A stretch of DNA of 33,816 nt, taken from the NCBI GenBank assembly GCA_009694805.1, contig SICM01000031.1, positions 1 through 33,816 of the forward strand, read 5' to 3'. Both the position numbers and the translations under genes were made by a program. Positions 1,987-33,701 of this stretch are shown in pieces (the stretch's first letter is position 1; every line of letters starts with the position of its first letter). The notes below the pieces were generated by a model that was given only the letters and a program-made list of their open reading frames with translations, was not told the origin of the DNA and made no database searches. The stretch comes from Candidatus Latescibacterota bacterium. Lineage in GTDB: Bacteria; Latescibacterota; UBA2968; SICM01.

Positions 1987-4235
1987 CGCCACCCATCCTC
2001 TTTCTCGATGAGATCACCGACCGGCACGCGGTCGGGGGCAAGGCGCGGGGCCTGGCCAGGCTTCTGACTGTGGGGTTTGAGGTTCCGGAGGGTTTCGTCG
2101 TGAGTCCCGAGGCGACGGACGAGGAGATCGCGGCGGCCTACCGGCGCATGGGGGCGGGCCGTGCCGCGGTGCGCTCATCGGCGGACGAGGAGGACGCGGA
2201 AAGACTCTCCTACGCCGGACAGTTTGAGACGTTCCTGGGGGTGGAGGGGGAGGAGGCGCTCCTGCGCGCGGTGGGGGCGTGCCGGGCTTCCGGGGCAGGC
2301 CCACGGGTGGAGCGTTACCGGGAGGGAGCGGCGGCGGGCAGGATGTGCCTGGTCGTCCAGCGGATGCTGCACCCCGAATACGCTGGCGTGGCCTTCGCGG
2401 AGGGGGACGGCGCGGTGCGGGTCGAGGGGGTCCGGGGCCTGGGCGAGCAGCTCGTCTCCGGCCGGTCCGCCCCTGTCCCGCTGCCGGGGGACCTCCGGGA
2501 GCGGGTGGAGGCCCTGGCGCGGGAGGTGGTGGAGCGTCTCGGGGGGGCGCAGGACCTCGAATGGGCCGCCCAGGACGGCCGCATCTGGATCCTTCAGGCC
2601 CGCCCGATCACGGTCCCGCTCTCCACGCCGCTCCCCGAGCGATTCCGTCTCTGGACATCGGTCAACCTCCAGGAGGCCCTCCCCCGGCCGCTGACGCCGC
2701 TCTCTGAAGCGTCGGCGCTGCGCAACATCGGGGAGACGTTCCGGATCTCCTTCCGCTTCGCCGGCATGCCGGCGCCGGACGGGCCGTCCGTGCGGCTGGT
2801 GAACGGGCTGTTCTACATGAGCTACAGCGCCATGGCCTCGGCGATGTCGGTCCTCCCCGGCTTCCAGGTGGAGAACCTCCTCCGGATGTTCGGGGACAGC
2901 CCGGGCCTGGCGAGGTTCGTGGCCTATCGCCCGGCGTGCAGGCTGCCCTACCTGCTCCGGGCGCCGGGGGTCCTGGCCCGGCAGGCGCTCTGGATCGCCA
3001 CCGCCGGACGCCGTCTGCGCAAAGCGCGGGAGGCCGTGCGGGCGCTCGGGGAGGAGGCCCGGTCGGTCCTGGCGGAGGGGGCGAGTGACGCCCGGCTGCT
3101 GGAACTTTTCCAGAACTGGTTCGCCCGAATCCGTCCGGCGCTGGAGATGATGAGCATCTCGACCAGCCTGGCCAACGGCCTGCTCAGCACCATGATGGAG
3201 GTGGCCGCCCGGAAAGCGCCGGACGTGTCGAGCGCGGAGGTAGGGGCTCTGGTCGCGGTGGGGGAGATGGAGAGCCTGTCGCCTTCGAGGTACCTGTCCG
3301 CGCTGGCCGATTTTCTTCGCGCCAACCCCGGCAGGTCGGACGACGACCCGGAGGTCCAGCGTCACCTGGCGCAGTTCCTGGACGCCTGCGGCTTCAGGTG
3401 CGAGAACGAGGCGGAGCTGGCCCAGCCGCGCTGGCAGGAGCGGCCCGACGAGGTGCTCCGCCTGGCGCGGAAGCTGGCCTCGGCGTCGGCAGGGACGCCC
3501 GCAGACCCCGGACTCCCTCCTGCGAACACCTCGCGGGCCCTGCGCCGGATGCTGAGATTTTACGTGGGACCCGCCCGCACCTGGCAGCGGAGGCGGGAGG
3601 CGGCGCGCGCCAACCTGGTCCGGACGCCCCTGAGCCTTCGGCGTCTCCTGCTGGAGATCGGGCGGCGGCTGCGGGACCGGAAGGTCATTCGGGCGCCTGA
3701 GGATGTCTTTTACCTGCTCTGGGGCGAGATCGAGGCCCTGCTGGGGGGGAATCCGACGGATCGCGCGGGTGAGGGGATCGCGGACCGGGTCGAGCGCCGG
3801 CGCGCGCGCCATCTCCGGATGCTCGCGTGGCCCCCGCCGGCCCGGCTGCTGGCGGAACTCCCGGACGGCAGGCTGGTCCCTTTTATCCCCGATCCCGGTT
3901 CCGGGGACGCGCTCCAGGGCTTCGGGGCCTCCCCCGGCCGGGTCACGGGCCGCGCGCGTGTCCTGTCCGACGTGGGACAGGGCGGAGAACTCCGGCCCGG
4001 CGAGGTGCTCGTGGCCCGGACGACGGACATCGCCTGGACGACGCTGTTTCGCACAGCCTCTGCCGTGGTCACGGAGATCGGCGCGCCGACCTCCCACGCG
4101 GCGATCGTAGCCCGCGAGCTGGGCATCCCGGCCGTGGTCAACGTGGACGGGGTCACCGGGCGCGTGCAGACCGGGGACCTGCTGTTCGTGGACGGGTGGG
4201 CCGGAATGGTGCGGATGATCCGGGATCAGAGATAA
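1983..4235 (+). CDS. PEP synthase-like / rifampicin phosphotransferase-like phosphotransfer protein
   Basis: The 750-residue protein begins with a PPDK/PEP-synthase ATP-grasp domain: VGGKARGLA with K20, the AVRSSADEED segment around residue 64, and the closing strand ILQARPIT near 205. A long middle region follows. It ends with the PEP-utilising swivelling domain APTSHAAIVARELGIPAVV, whose H705 is the phosphocarrier histidine. The C-terminal pyruvate/PEP TIM barrel of true PEP synthase is absent. That ATP-binding, substrate, His-domain layout is the one seen in rifampicin phosphotransferases (Rph, about 860 aa) and in other uncharacterised dikinase-like enzymes. It overlaps the acetyltransferase stop by 4 nt. 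The fold is secure; the acceptor substrate is unknown and rifampicin is only one possibility. Confidence 0.8.
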   Translation: MTPPILFLDEITDRHAVGGKARGLARLLTVGFEVPEGFVVSPEATDEEIAAAYRRMGAGRAAVRSSADEEDAERLSYAGQFETFLGVEGEEALLRAVGACRASGAGPRVERYREGAAAGRMCLVVQRMLHPEYAGVAFAEGDGAVRVEGVRGLGEQLVSGRSAPVPLPGDLRERVEALAREVVERLGGAQDLEWAAQDGRIWILQARPITVPLSTPLPERFRLWTSVNLQEALPRPLTPLSEASALRNIGETFRISFRFAGMPAPDGPSVRLVNGLFYMSYSAMASAMSVLPGFQVENLLRMFGDSPGLARFVAYRPACRLPYLLRAPGVLARQALWIATAGRRLRKAREAVRALGEEARSVLAEGASDARLLELFQNWFARIRPALEMMSISTSLANGLLSTMMEVAARKAPDVSSAEVGALVAVGEMESLSPSRYLSALADFLRANPGRSDDDPEVQRHLAQFLDACGFRCENEAELAQPRWQERPDEVLRLARKLASASAGTPADPGLPPANTSRALRRMLRFYVGPARTWQRRREAARANLVRTPLSLRRLLLEIGRRLRDRKVIRAPEDVFYLLWGEIEALLGGNPTDRAGEGIADRVERRRARHLRMLAWPPPARLLAELPDGRLVPFIPDPGSGDALQGFGASPGRVTGRARVLSDVGQGGELRPGEVLVARTTDIAWTTLFRTASAVVTEIGAPTSHAAIVARELGIPAVVNVDGVTGRVQTGDLLFVDGWAGMVRMIRDQR

Positions 4236-5590: not shown

Positions 5591-7684
5591 ATGGATCGCC
5601 TGCACATTCCCGACTCCGGCGCGACGTTCCTGTCCGGCCCGGCAGGGGCGGGGAAGACGACCCTGGCCGTGGCCCGGCTGGAGGCGCTGCTGAGGTCCGG
5701 GGTGCCGGGCCGGTCGATCCTGGTCACGGCCGCGCAGCGGAGCATGCTGCGCCCCTACCGGGCGAGGCTTCGGCGCGCGGACCTGCCTGCCGGGGAGGCC
5801 GTGGAGACGCTGACCCTGGGGGGGCTGGCGCGGCACGCCGTGGACCTGGCCTGGCCCGCCGTGGCGGGGGCCGCCGGGTTCACGCGGCCCGACCTGCCGC
5901 CGACCTTCCTGGCGCTGGAGACGGCGCAGTACTACATGCGGGGCATCGTCCAGCCTCTGATGGAGCGGCAGGGGTACTTCGAGGGGATCTCGATCCCCCG
6001 CCATCGGATCTGCAGCCAGCTCCTGGACAGCCTGGGCAAGTCGGCGCTGATGGGGTTCTCTCACGAGGAGATCGGGCCGCGTCTGAGCGCGTCATGGAGC
6101 GGGGAGCAGGCCCGCAAGGCGGTCTTCCACCAGGCGCAGGCGTGCGTGTCGGCGTTTCGGGAGATCTGTCTGACGCACAACCTGCTCGACTTCTCGCTGC
6201 AGGTGGAGCTGTTGTTCGGGCGCCTCCTCCGGATCGAATGGTGCCGGACCCTGCTGTTCGGGCGGTATCGCCACCTGATCGCGGACAACGTGGAGGAGGA
6301 GACGCCGGCGGTACACGATCTGATGCGGGTCTGGCTGCCGACCTGCGCGTCGGCCCTGCTGGTGTGCGACACAGACGCCGGGTACCGGTCCTTTCTGGGC
6401 GCGGACCCGGAGGGGGCGCTGGCACTCCGCGATCTCTGCCTACACCGGCTGGAGGCGGATTCCCGCGTCATGTCGCCGGGTATCCGGGCACTGGAGCGGC
6501 GGATCGCCCGGGCCCTGAGCGCGCCCGACGCCCACGCCGGGGGGGATGGGGAGGCCCTGGCGCTCGATGTGGAGGCGGGCCGGTTTTTCCCGCAGATGCT
6601 CGACCGGGCAGCGGAGCGGGTCGCCCGGCTGATTCAGGGGGAAGGGGTGTCCCCGTCCGAGGTCGTGATCCTGGCCCCGTACCTGGGGGACACCCTCCGG
6701 TTTGCGCTGACCGAACGCCTGAACCGCGCGGGCGTGGAGACGCGGTCCCTGCGGCCCTCCCGGTCCCTGGCCGAGGAGCCCACGGTCCGGGGGCTGATGA
6801 CCTGGGCGATGCTGGCCCACCCGGGGTGGGGGCGGGTCCCCCCGAAGCCCGACGTGGCGCACGCCCTGGCCGAGGCCATCGACGGCCTGGACCCGGCGCG
6901 GGCGCACCTCCTGACCCACTGGGCCTATCTCCCCGGTTTCGCGGGTCTCCGGCCCTTCGGGGAGGCGCCGTCTGAGGTGCAGGCGCGCATCGGGCGCGGG
7001 GTGGGGAGGCGGTATGAACGGCTGAGGGCCTGGCTGGAGGACTATCGCAGCGGGACGCCGCTGTTTCTGGACCACTTCCTGGGCCGGCTGTTCGGGGAGG
7101 CGCTGTCCCAGCCGGGCTACGGGTTTCACGCGGAGACCCGCCAGGGGCGGTTCGACCGGAGCCGCATCGCCAGCCACCTGATCGCCTCCGCGGCCCGGTT
7201 CCGGAAGACGGTCGCGTCCACAGACCTGCCCGGCGAACCCCCGGACCGGGCCTTCGTGGAGATGGTGGAGAGCGGGCTGATCGCCGGCCAGTACGTGGAG
7301 GCGCGGGCCGGGACGCCTCCGGACGCCGTGCTGCTGGCCCCGGCCACGACCTTCCTGGTGGAGAACCGTCCGGTGGACGTGCAGGTCTGGCTGAACGCCG
7401 GGAGTTTCGGCTGGTGGGAGCGGCCCTACCAGCCGCTGACGCATCCCTACGTGCTGACGCGTCGCTGGGAACGGGACCGGCTCTGGACGGACGCGGAGGA
7501 GCAGGCCTTCCGACGGAACGACCTCCTCCGGTTGCTGCGAGGCCTGTTGCGCCGCTGCCGGAAGCGGGTGGTGCTGGCCTTCAGCGCCCTGGACGAACGG
7601 GGGTTCGAGGAGCGGGGGCCGCTCCTGAACATTGTGCAGCAGGCGTTGCGAATGGATCGCATACAAGAAGGAAGTGCAAAATGA
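5591..7684 (+). CDS. AddB/RecC-like P-loop protein (divergent superfamily 1 helicase fold)
   Basis: The 697-residue protein has a Walker A motif SGPAGAGKTT with K22, then LVTAAQRSMLRPYRARL in the place of SF1 motif Ia. A degenerate motif II reads LIADNVEEETPAVHD, with DN where active helicases have DE. ILAPYLGDTLRFALTERLNRAGV resembles the second RecA-like domain of AddB, and the C-terminal third is family-specific. There is no C-terminal nuclease or cysteine cluster, unlike real AddB. It sits immediately upstream of a full helicase and a Fe-S nuclease, suggesting a structural subunit of one complex. The ATG at 5591 lacks a good ribosome site. The last codons and stop fall in an AT-rich repeat, so the C-terminus may have been altered by it. 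ATPase activity is uncertain. Confidence 0.7.
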   Translation: MDRLHIPDSGATFLSGPAGAGKTTLAVARLEALLRSGVPGRSILVTAAQRSMLRPYRARLRRADLPAGEAVETLTLGGLARHAVDLAWPAVAGAAGFTRPDLPPTFLALETAQYYMRGIVQPLMERQGYFEGISIPRHRICSQLLDSLGKSALMGFSHEEIGPRLSASWSGEQARKAVFHQAQACVSAFREICLTHNLLDFSLQVELLFGRLLRIEWCRTLLFGRYRHLIADNVEEETPAVHDLMRVWLPTCASALLVCDTDAGYRSFLGADPEGALALRDLCLHRLEADSRVMSPGIRALERRIARALSAPDAHAGGDGEALALDVEAGRFFPQMLDRAAERVARLIQGEGVSPSEVVILAPYLGDTLRFALTERLNRAGVETRSLRPSRSLAEEPTVRGLMTWAMLAHPGWGRVPPKPDVAHALAEAIDGLDPARAHLLTHWAYLPGFAGLRPFGEAPSEVQARIGRGVGRRYERLRAWLEDYRSGTPLFLDHFLGRLFGEALSQPGYGFHAETRQGRFDRSRIASHLIASAARFRKTVASTDLPGEPPDRAFVEMVESGLIAGQYVEARAGTPPDAVLLAPATTFLVENRPVDVQVWLNAGSFGWWERPYQPLTHPYVLTRRWERDRLWTDAEEQAFRRNDLLRLLRGLLRRCRKRVVLAFSALDERGFEERGPLLNIVQQALRMDRIQEGSAK

Positions 7685-7754: not shown

Positions 7755-10130
7755 GTGTTCAAGCCTCGACCCGACCAGGAACGCCTCCTCGACTACGTCC
7801 AGACGGGCGGACGGATGGGGGTGTCCGCGGTGCCGGGGAGCGGCAAGACGGCCACGCTCTCCTGCCTGGCGGCGCAGCTCGTTCGGGACCGCATCCGGGG
7901 CGAGGAGGAGGTGCTGATCGTCACGTTCATGAACTCCGCGGTGGACGCCTTCTCGCGCCGCATCCGGGGGTTTCTGGACGATGCGGGACTGCTGCCGGGC
8001 GTGGGCTATCGCGTCCGCACGCTGCACGGCCTGGGCAATGACATCGTGCGGGAGCGGCCGGGTCTCGTGGGGCTGTCGGAGGATTTCACCATTCTGGACG
8101 AGCGGGTGTCCTCGCAGGTGCTGGACGAGGTGGTCGTCCACTGGATGCGGGCGCACCCCGGCGGGCTCCAGGACTTCCTGTCCGGGGAGGTGACGGACGG
8201 GCGGCGGGCGTGGGTGGAACGCGAGGGGTGGCCGAACACGGTGCGGGAGACGGCGCGCGCCTTCATCCGGCGGGCGAAGGACCTGCTGCTTTCGCCCGAA
8301 GAGGTCCATCTCCGGCTGGGCGATGCGGAGTGGGCGCTCTGCCGGGCGGGGGCGGAGGTCTATGCGGACTACCAGCGGGCGCTGGCCCACCGGGGTGCGG
8401 TGGACTTCGACGATCTGATCCGCCTGGCCGTGGAGGCCCTTCGGAGCGACGCGGGACTGCTGGACCGGATGCGGCGGAGATGGCCTTATGTCCTGGAGGA
8501 TGAGGCGCAGGACAGCAGCGGACTCCAGGAGCAGATCCTGCGGCTGCTCACGGAGGGGGGAAACTGGGTGCGGGTGGGGGACCCCAACCAGGCCATCAAC
8601 ACGACTTTCACCACGGCCGATGTGCGGTTCCTGGGGCGGTTTCTGGAGGAGCCGGACACGCAACGGCGGGAACTCCTCCACTCCGGGCGTTCCACGAGGC
8701 GGATCATCGACGTGGCCAACCGGCTGATCGACTGGACCGTCTCCGGGCACCCGAACCCCACCGTCCGGCTGAGGGCCTTCCGGCCCCAGCACATCGCGCC
8801 GGTCCCCCCAACGCCGGAGGACGCCGGGTGGCCGCTGAATCCCGAGGACCTGCCGGACCACCGGGTGGTCTTCCACGGGAGGGCTTACACCCCCGACCAG
8901 GAGCTGAGCGCGGTGGTGGATTCACTGGCCCGCTGGATGCCGGGGCACGGGGATCGAACCGTGGCCGTGCTGACGTCGGACAACCGGCGGGGCGCGCGGG
9001 TGGCCGAGGCGCTCAAGCGGCGGAAGATCGACTATGACGAACTCCTGCGGAGCACGGCCGCGGTGCGACAGGCCGCGGAGCGGGTGACGCGCGTCCTGCG
9101 CTATCTGTCGGACCCGCTGTCCGGCCCTCTGCTGGCGCAGCTCTATGAGGTCTGGGCCAGGACCGGGCCGGAGGCCGGGGAGGGGGTTGACGAGGAGAGG
9201 GCGCGAAACATAGCCGGACTGCGTCGGTGCAAGGGCGTGGAGGCGCTGCTCTGGCCTTCAGAAGAAGGCGAGAGGCATCCTTCGACTCCACTACGTTCCG
9301 CTCAGGAGGCAACAGGCGAGAGGCCCTCACCCCGTCAGGCTACGCCTTCCACCCCTCTCCCGTACACGGGAGAGGGGAAGCCGAGCGAAGCGAGGTGGGG
9401 AGAGGGCGGTTTACACCTCACGCCTGACGAGGAGATCCCCGAATCCCTGACGGGTTTCCTGGAGGTCGTGCGGCGCTGGCTGGAGGCGTCGGCCCTGCCG
9501 GTGGATCAGCTCGTCCTGACCGTGGCGCAGGACCTCTTCCGAGGCGAGGACCCCGGCGCGGTGGCCCGCGACCTGGCCGTGGCGCATAAGATCGCGTCCC
9601 TGCTCCGGGGCGTCGCCGAGCAGAACCCCGGCTGGCGGCTGCAGGAGATGGCCGGGGAGGTGGAGCGGATCGCGGACAACGAGCGGCAGTTCCTGGGGTT
9701 CGACGAGGACGAGGCGGGCTACACGCCGACGCCGGGCCGGGTGACCGTGGCGACGATGCACAAGGCGAAGGGGCTGGAGTGGGACCGGGTCTATCTGATG
9801 GGCGTCAACACCTACGACTTCCCGTCGGCGGACTCCGGGGACACGTACCGGGGCGAGCGGTGGTTCATCCGGGATAACCTGGACCTCCGGGTGGAGATGA
9901 TCGCGCAACTGGAGGCCCTGAGCCGGGGGGGCGCCTCTCCGGTGGAGGGGGACGCCTCCCAGGAGGAGCGGCTGCGCTACGCGGAGGAGCGGCTGCGGCT
10001 GCTCTACGTGGGCATCACGCGCGGCCGGCGGGAGGTGATCGCCACGTACAACGTGGGCCTCCGGGAGGAGGACCCGAAGCCGGCTGCCCTGCCGTTCATC
10101 GCATTACGAGGTTTCGTAGAAAACCTGTAG
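7755..10130 (+). CDS. UvrD/Rep-type ATP-dependent DNA helicase (AddA-like, no nuclease domain)
   Basis: All SF1A helicase motifs are present in this 791-residue protein: Q-motif RPDQERLL, Walker A VPGSGKT (K31), Ia LIVTFMNSAVDAF, Walker B DEAQD (249-253), III GDPNQAI (about 275), V ATMHKAKGLEWD (about 666) and VI YVGITRGRRE (about 750). It should translocate 3'-5' on single-stranded DNA. AddA would carry a C-terminal RecB nuclease; here that activity lies in the next but separate gene, so the three genes likely form one end-processing complex. Residues about 500-553 are low-complexity sequence produced by an in-frame repeat insertion. GTG 7755 has GGAG 5 nt upstream. The TAG stop is part of a 28-bp palindrome. 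Confidence 0.9.
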   Translation: MFKPRPDQERLLDYVQTGGRMGVSAVPGSGKTATLSCLAAQLVRDRIRGEEEVLIVTFMNSAVDAFSRRIRGFLDDAGLLPGVGYRVRTLHGLGNDIVRERPGLVGLSEDFTILDERVSSQVLDEVVVHWMRAHPGGLQDFLSGEVTDGRRAWVEREGWPNTVRETARAFIRRAKDLLLSPEEVHLRLGDAEWALCRAGAEVYADYQRALAHRGAVDFDDLIRLAVEALRSDAGLLDRMRRRWPYVLEDEAQDSSGLQEQILRLLTEGGNWVRVGDPNQAINTTFTTADVRFLGRFLEEPDTQRRELLHSGRSTRRIIDVANRLIDWTVSGHPNPTVRLRAFRPQHIAPVPPTPEDAGWPLNPEDLPDHRVVFHGRAYTPDQELSAVVDSLARWMPGHGDRTVAVLTSDNRRGARVAEALKRRKIDYDELLRSTAAVRQAAERVTRVLRYLSDPLSGPLLAQLYEVWARTGPEAGEGVDEERARNIAGLRRCKGVEALLWPSEEGERHPSTPLRSAQEATGERPSPRQATPSTPLPYTGEGKPSEARWGEGGLHLTPDEEIPESLTGFLEVVRRWLEASALPVDQLVLTVAQDLFRGEDPGAVARDLAVAHKIASLLRGVAEQNPGWRLQEMAGEVERIADNERQFLGFDEDEAGYTPTPGRVTVATMHKAKGLEWDRVYLMGVNTYDFPSADSGDTYRGERWFIRDNLDLRVEMIAQLEALSRGGASPVEGDASQEERLRYAEERLRLLYVGITRGRREVIATYNVGLREEDPKPAALPFIALRGFVENL
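9260..9412. repeat. Repeat elements inserted in frame within the helicase gene
   Basis: About 150 bp inside the helicase gene look like intergenic repeats. A CCTTCGACTCCACTACG.TCCGCTCAGGA unit lies at about 9279-9306. A perfect palindrome follows, with arms CCCCTCTCCCG (9352-9362) and CGGGAGAGGGG (9367-9377), then AGCCGAGCGAAGCGAGGTGG. Similar C-rich/G-rich palindromes occur between genes at 12283-12316, about 18460-18480 and 28808-28857. The frame stays open and adds a Pro/Ser/Thr/Gly-rich stretch between conserved helicase motifs III and V. Confidence 0.7.
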
Positions 10131-10154
10131 GGGCGACGCATGCGTCGCCCCTAC
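10127..10154. repeat. 28-bp perfect palindrome of the GTAGGGGCG family
   Basis: GTAGGGGCGACGCA (10127-10140) is followed directly by its exact reverse complement (10141-10154). The TAG at 10128-10130 is the helicase stop codon. Related palindromes end the genes at 25700 and 31164 and another lies at 28783-28809. Confidence 0.85.
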
Positions 10155-25584: not shown

Positions 25585-25624
25585 AAACAGACAGGCGCGG
25601 TCGAGAGACCGCGCCTGTCTGTTT
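25585..25624. terminator. Strong bidirectional terminator between convergent genes
   Basis: AAACAGACAGGCGCGGTC (25585-25602) and GACCGCGCCTGTCTGTTT (25607-25624) make a perfect 18-bp stem with a GAGA loop. It separates the C45 gene from the convergent CHRD/P460 gene. A sister copy lies at 31076-31115. Confidence 0.85.
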
Positions 25625-25676
25625 GATCAGATCCCCGCAGGGGCGACCCGACGGTGGATCAGAAATACATCCCCGC

Positions 25677-25703
25677 AGGGGCGATCACAAGGATCGCCCC
25701 TAC
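25677..25703. repeat. GTAGGGGCG-family palindrome supplying the CHRD/P460 stop codon
   Basis: AGGGGCGATC (25677-25686) pairs with GATCGCCCCT (25692-25701). The minus-strand gene's TAG (25702-25700) is the start of the palindrome. ATCCCCGCAGGGGCGA occurs twice just outside it (25631-25646, 25669-25684). Confidence 0.8.
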
Positions 25704-28782: not shown

Positions 28783-28860
28783 GTAGGGGCGGTTCGCGAA
28801 CCGCCCTACCCCCTGCCCCCTCCCTCTCCGTATACGGAGAGGGAGGGGGCAGGGGGTGGG
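28783..28860. repeat. GTAGGGGCG palindrome fused to a 50-bp perfect palindrome
   Basis: GTAGGGGCGGTTCG..CGAACCGCCCTAC (28783-28809, one bulged G) runs into a perfect palindrome at 28808-28857. The latter's centre is GTATAC and its arms are runs of C and G broken by T or A. One G-U pair extends it to 28860. It lies upstream of the STAS gene on the minus strand. Confidence 0.85.
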
Positions 28861-31075: not shown

Positions 31076-31115
31076 AAAAAGGCAGGCGCAGTCGAGAGAC
31101 CGCGCCTGCCTTTTT
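31076..31115. terminator. Bidirectional-looking terminator after the temptin/CHRD gene
   Basis: AAAAAGGCAGGCGCAGTC (31076-31093) pairs with GACCGCGCCTGCCTTTTT (31098-31115), 17 of 18 bp, with a GAGA loop. It is a sister of the terminator at 25585-25624 and ends the minus-strand gene whose stop is at 31164. Confidence 0.8.
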
Positions 31116-31143: not shown

Positions 31144-31167
31144 GGGCGAGGCTTGCCTCGCCCCTAC
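31144..31167. repeat. GTAGGGGCG-family palindrome supplying the temptin/CHRD stop codon
   Basis: GGGCGAGGC (31144-31152) pairs with GCCTCGCCC (31155-31163). On the minus strand the gene's TAG (31166-31164) lies within the GTAGGGGCG start of the palindrome. Confidence 0.8.
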
Positions 31168-33701
31168 TTGAGCAGGACGAGCTTTTTCACCTCCCTGAAG
31201 GTTCCCGCCTCCAGACGGTAGTAGTACGTGCCCGACGCAAAGTCGCGGGCATCCCACGTGATGCTGTAGGCCCCGGCCTCCTGGCGCACATCCACCAGCC
31301 GCGCCACCTGCTGACCCAGCATATTGTAGATGGTCAGGCGCACCCGGCCGGCTTCGGGCAGGGCGTAGCGGATGGTGGTGGCGGGGTTGAAGGGGTTGGG
31401 CACATTCTGGAACAGGGCATAGTCCTTCGGGGAGGCTCCGTTGAGCAGGGCCTCGGCGGCCACGTCCCCGATGGGCATGAGGTCTCTGTCATACAGCAGG
31501 CCGGCTAGCTTCAGGTCCCCCAGGGCGTCGCCTGCACGACGGTCGAAGGAGAGGACCAGGGCGGTCGGGTCGGCGGAGACAAGCCCCTCGAAGGCGAGGG
31601 AGACGTGGCCCGGGCCGGATTCCGTGACGGTCAGGCCGGTGTTTCCGATCCTGCCTTCCCGGAAGGCGAGCAGCGCCGGGTCGTAGGTCAGCGTCAGGTC
31701 GCCCCCGAAGAGGGCGCTCCCGCCGCCGATCTGCACGGGCAGGTCGAGGGAACCGTCCTCCCGCTTCTCTGCGCTCCCGAAGGAGACGGACGGAGCCAGG
31801 GGCTCCATCCCGGAAAGGACCGTGACGGTCGGAAGGGCCGCCACGGGCTTGGTCGCCGCGAGGGGCGTTCCGAAGAAGGGGCCGGTGATGGCGGCCTGTC
31901 CGTTAATCTGGAGCTGAAGATCCGTCGCGCGGCCACCTCGCAGGGGGATGCCGGACCACATCCCGAGCACGGTGCCGGTCGTGAGGTCTGTCAGGCGCGC
32001 CCAGTAGTAGCCGTTGGCCCCCACCCGGCGGAACGCAGGCTCCTGCTGCACCGAGATGTTGACGGTGGCCCTGCCGTTGGCGTCCGTGGTCCCCCGGTAT
32101 TGGAAGCCGAACCTGGCGGTGGTCGTAGGCGTGCTGTTCACCAGGCGCGAGAAGGGTTGCTGGCCAGCGACCGCACGGTCGAAGTCCACCGTCAGGCCCC
32201 CCAGGCCGGGCTTCGGCAGGGCGACCTGCCCGCGGATCTCGCCGCCGGGGTTGGCCGCGGTGTGGACGTTGAAGTAGATCTTGCCGGCCAGCAGTTCCTT
32301 GAGCAGCGCCGACGTGATGGCCCAATTGCCAGCCGAGGTCGCGCCGGTGAACGGGGTGGCCTGGACCACGCCCCCGTTGGTCCCTGCCGCGGCGTTGTGG
32401 AAGTGCGCGGCGGAGATTGCGCCGCTCAGGCCGGAGACCGTGACCCGGTACTGGAGGCCGTAGGCATCCCACGCGAACGCCCCGGTCCCTATCCCATTGG
32501 TCGTGACGGCCGGGTTCTCCTGCGTCCCGTCCAGCGCTGCCGAGAACCGGAGGCCGGAGGTCATCAGGACCTGCCCGCGGATCTCGCCGCCGGGGTTGGC
32601 CGCGGTGTGGAGGTTCGTGTAGATGCGGCCCAGCAGGAGCTGATCCAGAAGGGCCGTGGTGAGCGGCTGCGTGGCGTCGTCAAACCCCCAGGTGCCGGTT
32701 GCGGTGTTGCCGGTGAACGGGATATCCCGGACCACGCCTCCGTTGGTGCCCCTCGCCGCGTTGTGGAAGTGCGAGGCCGTGCGCGGCCCGGTCAGGCCCG
32801 AATAGGTGATCCGGTAGTTGAGTCCCTTGCTGTCCAGCCAGTACGACCCGGACGCGGTCCCCGTGACCGTGAGCGCCGGGTTCTCCTGACTCCCGTCCAG
32901 GGCCGCCCAGAAGCTCGCGCCCGCGTTGAGGGTGACCTGGCCGCGAACCTCGCCGCCGGGGTTGGCGGCGGTGTGGACGTTCACGTAGATGCGGCCCGCC
33001 AGCAGCGCAGCGACCTGCGCGGGGGTGATCGCCCAGACGCCGGTCGCGGTGTTGCCGGTGAACGTGATCGGCTGGATCACGCCGCCGTTGGTCCCGGCCG
33101 CCGCGTTGTGGAAATGCGCCGCGGTCATGGGGCCGCTCAGGCTGTCCACGGTGATTCGGTAGCGGAGGCCGCTGGCGTCCAGCACGAACGCCCCGGTCCC
33201 CTTCCCCGCGGTCGTGACCGCCGGGTTCTCCTGCGTCCCGTCCATCGCCGCGGTCAGGGAGATGGCGGGGGCGACCGTGGTGAAGGAGAGATCCCCCGGC
33301 TTGCTCTGGAAGTCGCCGGGGAGGGAGACGTTCCTGGGGCTGCCCGGCGCGGGCTGCCCGACCCTCCAGGCCCCGTTCGGGTCTCCCAGCTCCTGGCCGT
33401 TCGTGACGCCGTCCCCGTCCGAGTCCAGATTCGCCAGGTCAGGCCCCCAGTTCACGGCGAACAGGTCGATGGTGGCGTTCGCCGGGGTGGCGGGGGCCAC
33501 GAGGAAGGCCCTCTCGATCGTCTGCCCGAAGGCGTTGCGGCCGCCGCCTCCCATGGGGTTAAAGTGACAGTTGGAACACCGGTTGATCCCGCCGTTGGGG
33601 AGCTGGCCCGGACGGAACGGGCGCCCCTCGGCCTGCCCGAACATCCCTCCCATCATCAAGACTGCCAGGGCTAAGTACACGACAGTAATCGTTGACAGCA
33701 A
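31164..33701 (-). CDS. Secreted temptin-like / triple-CHRD / cohesin-like protein with c-haem motif and sorting tail
   Basis: The 845-residue protein has a signal-like N-terminus (1-25). A temptin-like region with haem motif CSNCH (42-46), NPMGGGGRNAFGQ and the calcium-loop NLDSDGDGVTNGQELGDP (91-108) follows. Three CHRD domains (about 147-258, 264-381, 386-494) each have HFHNAA.GTNGG and HTAANPGGE.RGQ. After a beta-rich linker come a cohesin-like domain (636-745) and the FlgD-like/type IX sorting tail (YALFQNVPNPFNPAT...KKLVLLK). Temptin is a molluscan pheromone family; the bacterial role is unknown. The start is uncertain: TTG 33701 is used, but it lies inside a transposase remnant and no ribosome site is evident. 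The product is predicted to be exported and surface-attached or secreted. Confidence 0.8.
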   Translation of the reverse strand: MLSTITVVYLALAVLMMGGMFGQAEGRPFRPGQLPNGGINRCSNCHFNPMGGGGRNAFGQTIERAFLVAPATPANATIDLFAVNWGPDLANLDSDGDGVTNGQELGDPNGAWRVGQPAPGSPRNVSLPGDFQSKPGDLSFTTVAPAISLTAAMDGTQENPAVTTAGKGTGAFVLDASGLRYRITVDSLSGPMTAAHFHNAAAGTNGGVIQPITFTGNTATGVWAITPAQVAALLAGRIYVNVHTAANPGGEVRGQVTLNAGASFWAALDGSQENPALTVTGTASGSYWLDSKGLNYRITYSGLTGPRTASHFHNAARGTNGGVVRDIPFTGNTATGTWGFDDATQPLTTALLDQLLLGRIYTNLHTAANPGGEIRGQVLMTSGLRFSAALDGTQENPAVTTNGIGTGAFAWDAYGLQYRVTVSGLSGAISAAHFHNAAAGTNGGVVQATPFTGATSAGNWAITSALLKELLAGKIYFNVHTAANPGGEIRGQVALPKPGLGGLTVDFDRAVAGQQPFSRLVNSTPTTTARFGFQYRGTTDANGRATVNISVQQEPAFRRVGANGYYWARLTDLTTGTVLGMWSGIPLRGGRATDLQLQINGQAAITGPFFGTPLAATKPVAALPTVTVLSGMEPLAPSVSFGSAEKREDGSLDLPVQIGGGSALFGGDLTLTYDPALLAFREGRIGNTGLTVTESGPGHVSLAFEGLVSADPTALVLSFDRRAGDALGDLKLAGLLYDRDLMPIGDVAAEALLNGASPKDYALFQNVPNPFNPATTIRYALPEAGRVRLTIYNMLGQQVARLVDVRQEAGAYSITWDARDFASGTYYYRLEAGTFREVKKLVLLK

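Follow-up and report, generated by a model that had tools for sequence, protein, structure and literature searches.

Palindromes and gene ends in the window

Three genes in a stretch of 33,816 nucleotides from a Candidatus Latescibacterota bacterium (contig SICM01000031.1; the whole stretch is referred to here as the window) end inside short palindromes that supply their TAG stop codons, which raises the question of how a palindrome and a stop codon come to share the same bases. An earlier note on this DNA had suggested either a mobile palindrome that targets or mimics gene ends, or a repeat under selection to serve as both stop codon and 3'-end hairpin. The window contains six matches to GTAGGGGCG where 0.29 would be expected. 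The UvrD/PcrA-type helicase gene (7755–10130, + strand) ends in the foot of a perfect 28-bp palindrome of the form GTAG-GGGC...GCCC-CTAC (10127–10154, +), its stop being TAG 10128–10130. The CHRD/P460 gene (25700–27985, - strand), which carries a T9SS-type C-terminal signal and ends in KLVLIK-stop, uses TAG 25702–25700 of the palindrome at 25675–25703 (-), and the temptin/CHRD gene (31164–33701, -), ending in KLVLLK-stop, uses TAG 31166–31164 of the palindrome at 31144–31167 (-). An intergenic copy with a GTAG foot is located at 28783–28809 (+). As the note had described, and with the same ORF ends, all three stops occupy positions 2–4 of the arm, in the foot of a GTAGGGGC hairpin.

The outer arm, said to be constant around a differing middle, proved to be so on the gene side, and both full arms are present only at 10127–10154. 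On the far side the foot is degenerate at 25675–25703 (GCAG), one C short at 28783–28809 (GCCC-TAC), and missing at 31144–31167, which is a one-foot copy consisting of GTAG plus GGGCGAGGC...GCCTCGCCC. The C-terminus and 3' flank of the temptin/CHRD gene are homologous to those of the CHRD/P460 gene, including sequence past the hairpin, and the hairpin centres of the two differ. Since the CHRD genes share this homologous 3' end, the window provides two independent stop cases rather than three.

The copy of the 9-mer GTAGGGGCG at 5750–5758 (-) lies within a coding sequence (5591–7684), has no matching far arm and is probably there by chance. Directly beside the intergenic palindrome at 28783–28809, an inverted repeat of 28 nt, nearly perfect (96%) and lacking a spacer, occupies 28805–28860. 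No Rfam family matched the window at its gathering score, and no match was found in the plasmid collection.

Genome-wide distribution and stop overlap

The genome (4.89 Mb in 293 contigs; assembly 92% complete) contains 58 perfect GTAGGGGCG...CGCCCCTAC palindromes and none of the reversed control sequence. The loci analysed were those around 50 listed palindromes of the 58, together with a 788-kb sample composed of the window and 40 contigs absent from the palindrome list. The genome-wide count of in-frame stops that the earlier note had suggested was carried out on 102 arms of 51 palindromes. Coding frames of at least 100 codons enter these arms in the phases GTA:TAG:AGG at 6:25:6 (binomial p ~2e-5; this and the other p-values given here are uncorrected and come from several tests on one genome). 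Among 63 gene 3' ends facing a palindrome, as defined by a simple home-made gene caller rather than an established one, 23 have their stop precisely on the arm TAG, another 15 are 0–9 bp away and seven 10–19 bp away. Fifty of the 51 palindromes are outside genes, and none lies between divergent genes. Several thresholds were chosen while viewing the data, namely the ORF length of 100 codons, the coding score of 0.06, the hairpin score of 7 and the "4 tolerated positions" used below.

One may ask whether a GC-rich genome simply yields palindromes and in-phase TAGs at random. This may well apply to one of the six window matches, the coding-sequence coincidence at 5750. As a general explanation it is hardly credible, in view of the 58 palindromes against none in the control and of the excess of the TAG phase.

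In the 788-kb sample 11 of 29 GTAGGGG hairpin arms are stops, as against none of the 10 arms of the GTAGCGCG family, another GTAG palindrome (Fisher p 0.04). GTAGCGCGGGAA...TTCCCGCGCTAC palindromes, which likewise have GTAG...CTAC ends, form a second family, seen at loci L205, L218, L226, L227 and L232 of this genome and on no stop codon in the sample. REP stems abut TAG stops, and no stem directly following a TAA or TGA stop was found. Tag-hairpins occupy 15 of 83 GTAG stops, 42 of 353 intergenic GTAGs and five of 3543 coding GTAGs; stops are thus occupied at much the same rate as other GTAGs where a copy would do no harm.

Identity of the palindromes

The palindromes are REPs of the GTAG superfamily, in a one-foot form (GTAG followed by a GC-rich stem) and a double-foot form (GTAG-stem-CTAC). 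The constant foot and stem base surround variable self-complementary centres. In the sample, the tetranucleotide found most often, by a wide margin, next to GGGC...GCCC cores is GTAG (30 of 86 flanks): it stands on one side of 20 cores, where it is unpaired, and on both sides of five, where it is paired. The remaining 18 cores lack it; several of these are inside genes and are probably due to chance. GTAG REPs are described by Di Nocera et al. (2013, PMC3733652) as elements of 20–40 bp, found singly or as head-head dimers near 3' ends in unidirectional or convergent gene gaps. The present palindromes are perfect, measure 27–30 bp and have a GTAG end; they are dispersed, mostly extragenic and near gene 3' ends, and head-head dimers with the GTAG feet outward are found at L205, L206 and L241. 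The joint occurrence of one-foot and double-foot REPs in this genome agrees with what is known of TnpAREP subclass 2.4 (RAYT group 4), where double-foot and canonical one-foot REPs accompany each other (Quentin et al. 2018, PMC6006769).

Length of the stop-tagged proteins

The proteins whose stop lies in a REP foot are not clearly truncated. Where a family model extends to the C-terminus, most of them stop no more than a few residues from where the model does; for about a third of the stop-tagged proteins there was no usable model. Among those ending near the model end are FabG, LysA, a GlcF-like protein, a BhcC-like aldolase, a caprolactamase-like subunit, a ROK kinase and a hydroxy-acid reductase; a rhamnulokinase is ambiguous, as its two models disagree. 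The helicase of the window is as long at its C-terminus as its homologues and ends where they do; its nearest relatives in the search belong to the Chloroflexota.

The proteins with T9SS signals allow a closer reading of the last codon. Fourteen proteins with T9SS-type C-terminal signals (TIGR04183) were noted at loci L172–L185 of this genome (G000), which also encodes a PorV/PorQ-family protein (L107:2043–3050, +). Among the 13 with a readable end, the REP lies exactly after the canonical terminal lysine codon in four, two of which are the paralogous pair of the window. Five others end in TAG with no REP at that place, four of them as AAG-TAG. These ends favour coincidence of the foot with a native GTAG stop over truncation. 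The idea that the palindrome targets or mimics gene ends can be kept in a narrower form: the foot contains a TAG that is in frame, and it is strongly over-represented at native C-termini in this genome.

RAYT genes and mobility

The mobility postulated in the earlier note is borne out by GTAG-footed REPs that are present, absent or replaced at the same site between species and that lie inside the RAYT genes of relatives. Among 20 distinct RAYT-like ORFs from relatives, 15 contain a GTAG hairpin, 11 of them with the GGGC stem base. In all 12 ORFs in which both the HuH and the Tyr motif were found the hairpin is located between the two, and the reading frame is kept. Translated in frame, such hairpins read, for example, VGAGLKPAPT or VGATHASPLL (L249, L259, L292–L308 and L317, all in relatives). 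The 28-mer at the helicase stop occurs, identical, inside a RAYT gene of relative G049 (L317). Against the NCBIfam RAYT model two of the relatives' proteins scored 62.3 and 52.4 bits, below the cut-off of 80. A subclass-2.4-like gene is present in 14 of 17 genomes with at least three palindromes and in 12 of 43 others, a comparison made without correction for phylogeny and with the cut at three set after the counts had been seen.

Searching the window's own genome (92% complete) with the subclass-2.4-like RAYT query gave no match, so that no cognate transposase was found. The one RAYT of this genome is of another type (100.7 bits, above the NCBIfam cut-off) and is split between two frames; it is situated at about 2943–3797 (-) of L145 (G000:C64), among genes of restriction-modification type (HsdS/HsdR-like by eye), and no GTAGGGGC hairpins were seen near it. 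This negative result does not exclude REP identity, since genomes with REPs and no tnpAREP have been published (PMC6006769).

Empty sites were sought in g12 and in g6, another genus of the class, and the latter gave two informative slots; the query covered the first 12 of 16 loci (3119 of 4160 bases). At the first, a gene end, GTAGGGGC palindromes with different centres are found in two species, two have a short REP-free sequence and three have other inserts. At the second, three species have GTAGGGGC-type palindromes, two have a GCGCCGGC palindrome and two a longer repeat, and a divergent species has an empty site. GTAG is absent from the junction of the two close empty sites; the divergent one has CTAC there, which is not decisive. 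The element therefore seems to bring its own foot in g6, the empty sites being without a clear GTAG. The comparison at L166, part of the g12 search, gave no clean empty site. No target-site duplication of 2–9 nt and no clear flank consensus were found. Gene-end slots at which unrelated palindromes are exchanged between species were noted at L188, L191 and L200 and the orthologous loci L267–L290 (genus g6).

The stop overlap differs between these genomes. It is exact at 23 of 63 facing gene ends here and at four of 58 in g6 (p 1e-4); in g12 it is exact at four of 23, about two of them independent (L150, L163 and L164 apparently represent a single homologous locus), the gene calls in g6 and g12 having been made on 3-kb loci. 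The large excess of stops therefore belongs to this genome; in g6 and g12 any excess is weak. An overlap no more frequent than chance, the outcome which the earlier note had set against its own idea, was thus not what this genome gave, and comes close to being what g6 gives.

Origin of the stop overlap

We propose, with a good degree of confidence, that the whole is explained by GTAG REPs of the kind tied to a RAYT/TnpAREP of subclass 2.4, the copies at gene ends probably coinciding with native stops. A RAYT acting on single-stranded hairpins would spread the copies, with binding, cleavage and transfer as putative activities of the transposase. A copy reaching a gene end would persist where its GTAG foot and the native stop fall together, which would leave the protein unchanged and give the mRNA a stable hairpin immediately past the stop codon. 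The likelier route here would be that the foot matched an NNG-TAG stop already in place, whether through target choice or microhomology, because the overlap is exact and restricted to TAG. Selection acting on the survivors is proposed as the last step.

The same pattern might arise without any targeting, if insertion near 3' ends were random in position and purifying selection left, among copies in the last codons, only those whose foot TAG falls in phase. This is a serious alternative which we nevertheless regard as somewhat improbable. Copies pile up just downstream of stops in any case (the 15 at 0–9 bp), the exact cases in g6 do not exceed what neighbouring positions there would give, and at the empty sites elsewhere the element brings its own GTAG. 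At about two copies per bp near the stop, however, the 23 exact cases would need roughly 10–15 tolerated codon positions and hence visible truncation, whereas the family models show little of it and the T9SS cases lie exactly at the canonical last codon. With about four tolerated positions, a figure of our own choosing, eight cases would be expected (Poisson p 1e-5). Within the preferred reading, in which copies coincide with native stops, the further step that the REP-spreading machinery of this lineage actively uses the native stop GTAG as its landing site, leaving the protein unaltered, is a tentative suggestion and on balance a doubtful one.

Hairpins and transcription termination

Might the hairpin at the stop have been selected for a function of its own, such as transcription termination, protection of the mRNA or modulation of translation termination? 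The hairpins are stable as RNA according to computation, no palindrome lies between divergent genes, and the g6 slots hold different palindromes in different species, all of which would suit such a function. The T-content after the arms does so as well: at least five T in the following 8 nt were counted at 13 of 102 arms compared with 0.7% of random positions, and the mean is 2.5 T in 8 against a background of 1.4. In work on E. coli cited in PMC12306157, REPs lying within 15 nt of a stop codon stall ribosomes. Yet most arms have no T-run, there is no excess in g6, and the stems never directly follow TAA or TGA, which selection for spacing alone would allow. This adjacency to TAG only speaks for a cause at the level of sequence rather than for selection of hairpin spacing. 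At both CHRD genes, moreover, a separate strong hairpin running into T's, terminator-like by eye, follows 28–50 nt past the REP (25585–25624, -, and 31076–31115, -); the former is absent from the list of a simple terminator scan. A selected function at the stop is consequently unlikely in our estimation, and the combined stop codon and 3' hairpin of the earlier note is unproven: the T enrichment is above background, and in its favour, and the TAG restriction and the second hairpins of the CHRD genes are not.

A general role as intrinsic terminators, which would take a GC-rich hairpin and a T-run, is doubtful, the T-run being missing from most arms. A minority of the hairpins may terminate transcription.

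Comparison with known systems

REPs are common, but their choice of site is poorly known. A genome in which more than a third of the REP-facing gene ends use the foot as stop, with proteins not clearly shortened, is a natural test of whether RAYTs target GTAG or selection alone shapes the pattern. Annotators should be aware that where a GTAGGGGC hairpin contains a TAG stop, the stop may be linked with a mobile repeat. Both forms of REP, the link to RAYTs and the frequent provision of TAG stops by GTAG REPs are already published; within the literature searched, what is new is how large the effect is in one genome, that the proteins are not clearly truncated, that only TAG is concerned and that the excess is nearly absent from another genus. 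Nothing relevant to the 9-mer or to the peptide GLKPAPT turned up in that literature.

Di Nocera et al. (2013, PMC3733652) state that the termini of GTAG REPs "often provide" a TAG stop to flanking ORFs; the text consulted contains no numbers for the stop overlap and no test of truncation, both of which are given here. In the REPs they describe the GTAG is unpaired, whereas in the double-foot copies found here it is paired with CTAC. The RAYTs with abundant REPs reported by Nunvar et al. (2010, PMC2817692) were found only in gammaproteobacteria. Their REPs, like the present ones, have a GT(A/G)G head that passes directly into a GC-rich palindrome, the short middle of which varies; they flank the rayt gene, however, whereas the hairpins of the relatives studied here lie inside RAYT genes. 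The closest resemblance in that respect is to the elements of Quentin et al. (2018, PMC6006769), for which REPs within the transposase gene, between HuH and Tyr, are the unique mark of subclass 2.4. We find the same in-frame position in relatives, and likewise a 5' GTAG matched by CTAC, its reverse complement, at the other end, and a stem base of consecutive G-C pairs. Unlike the situation described there, the window's own genome gave no match to a subclass-2.4-like gene; that paper makes no mention of stop codons, which the REPs described here supply at 23 of 63 facing gene ends.
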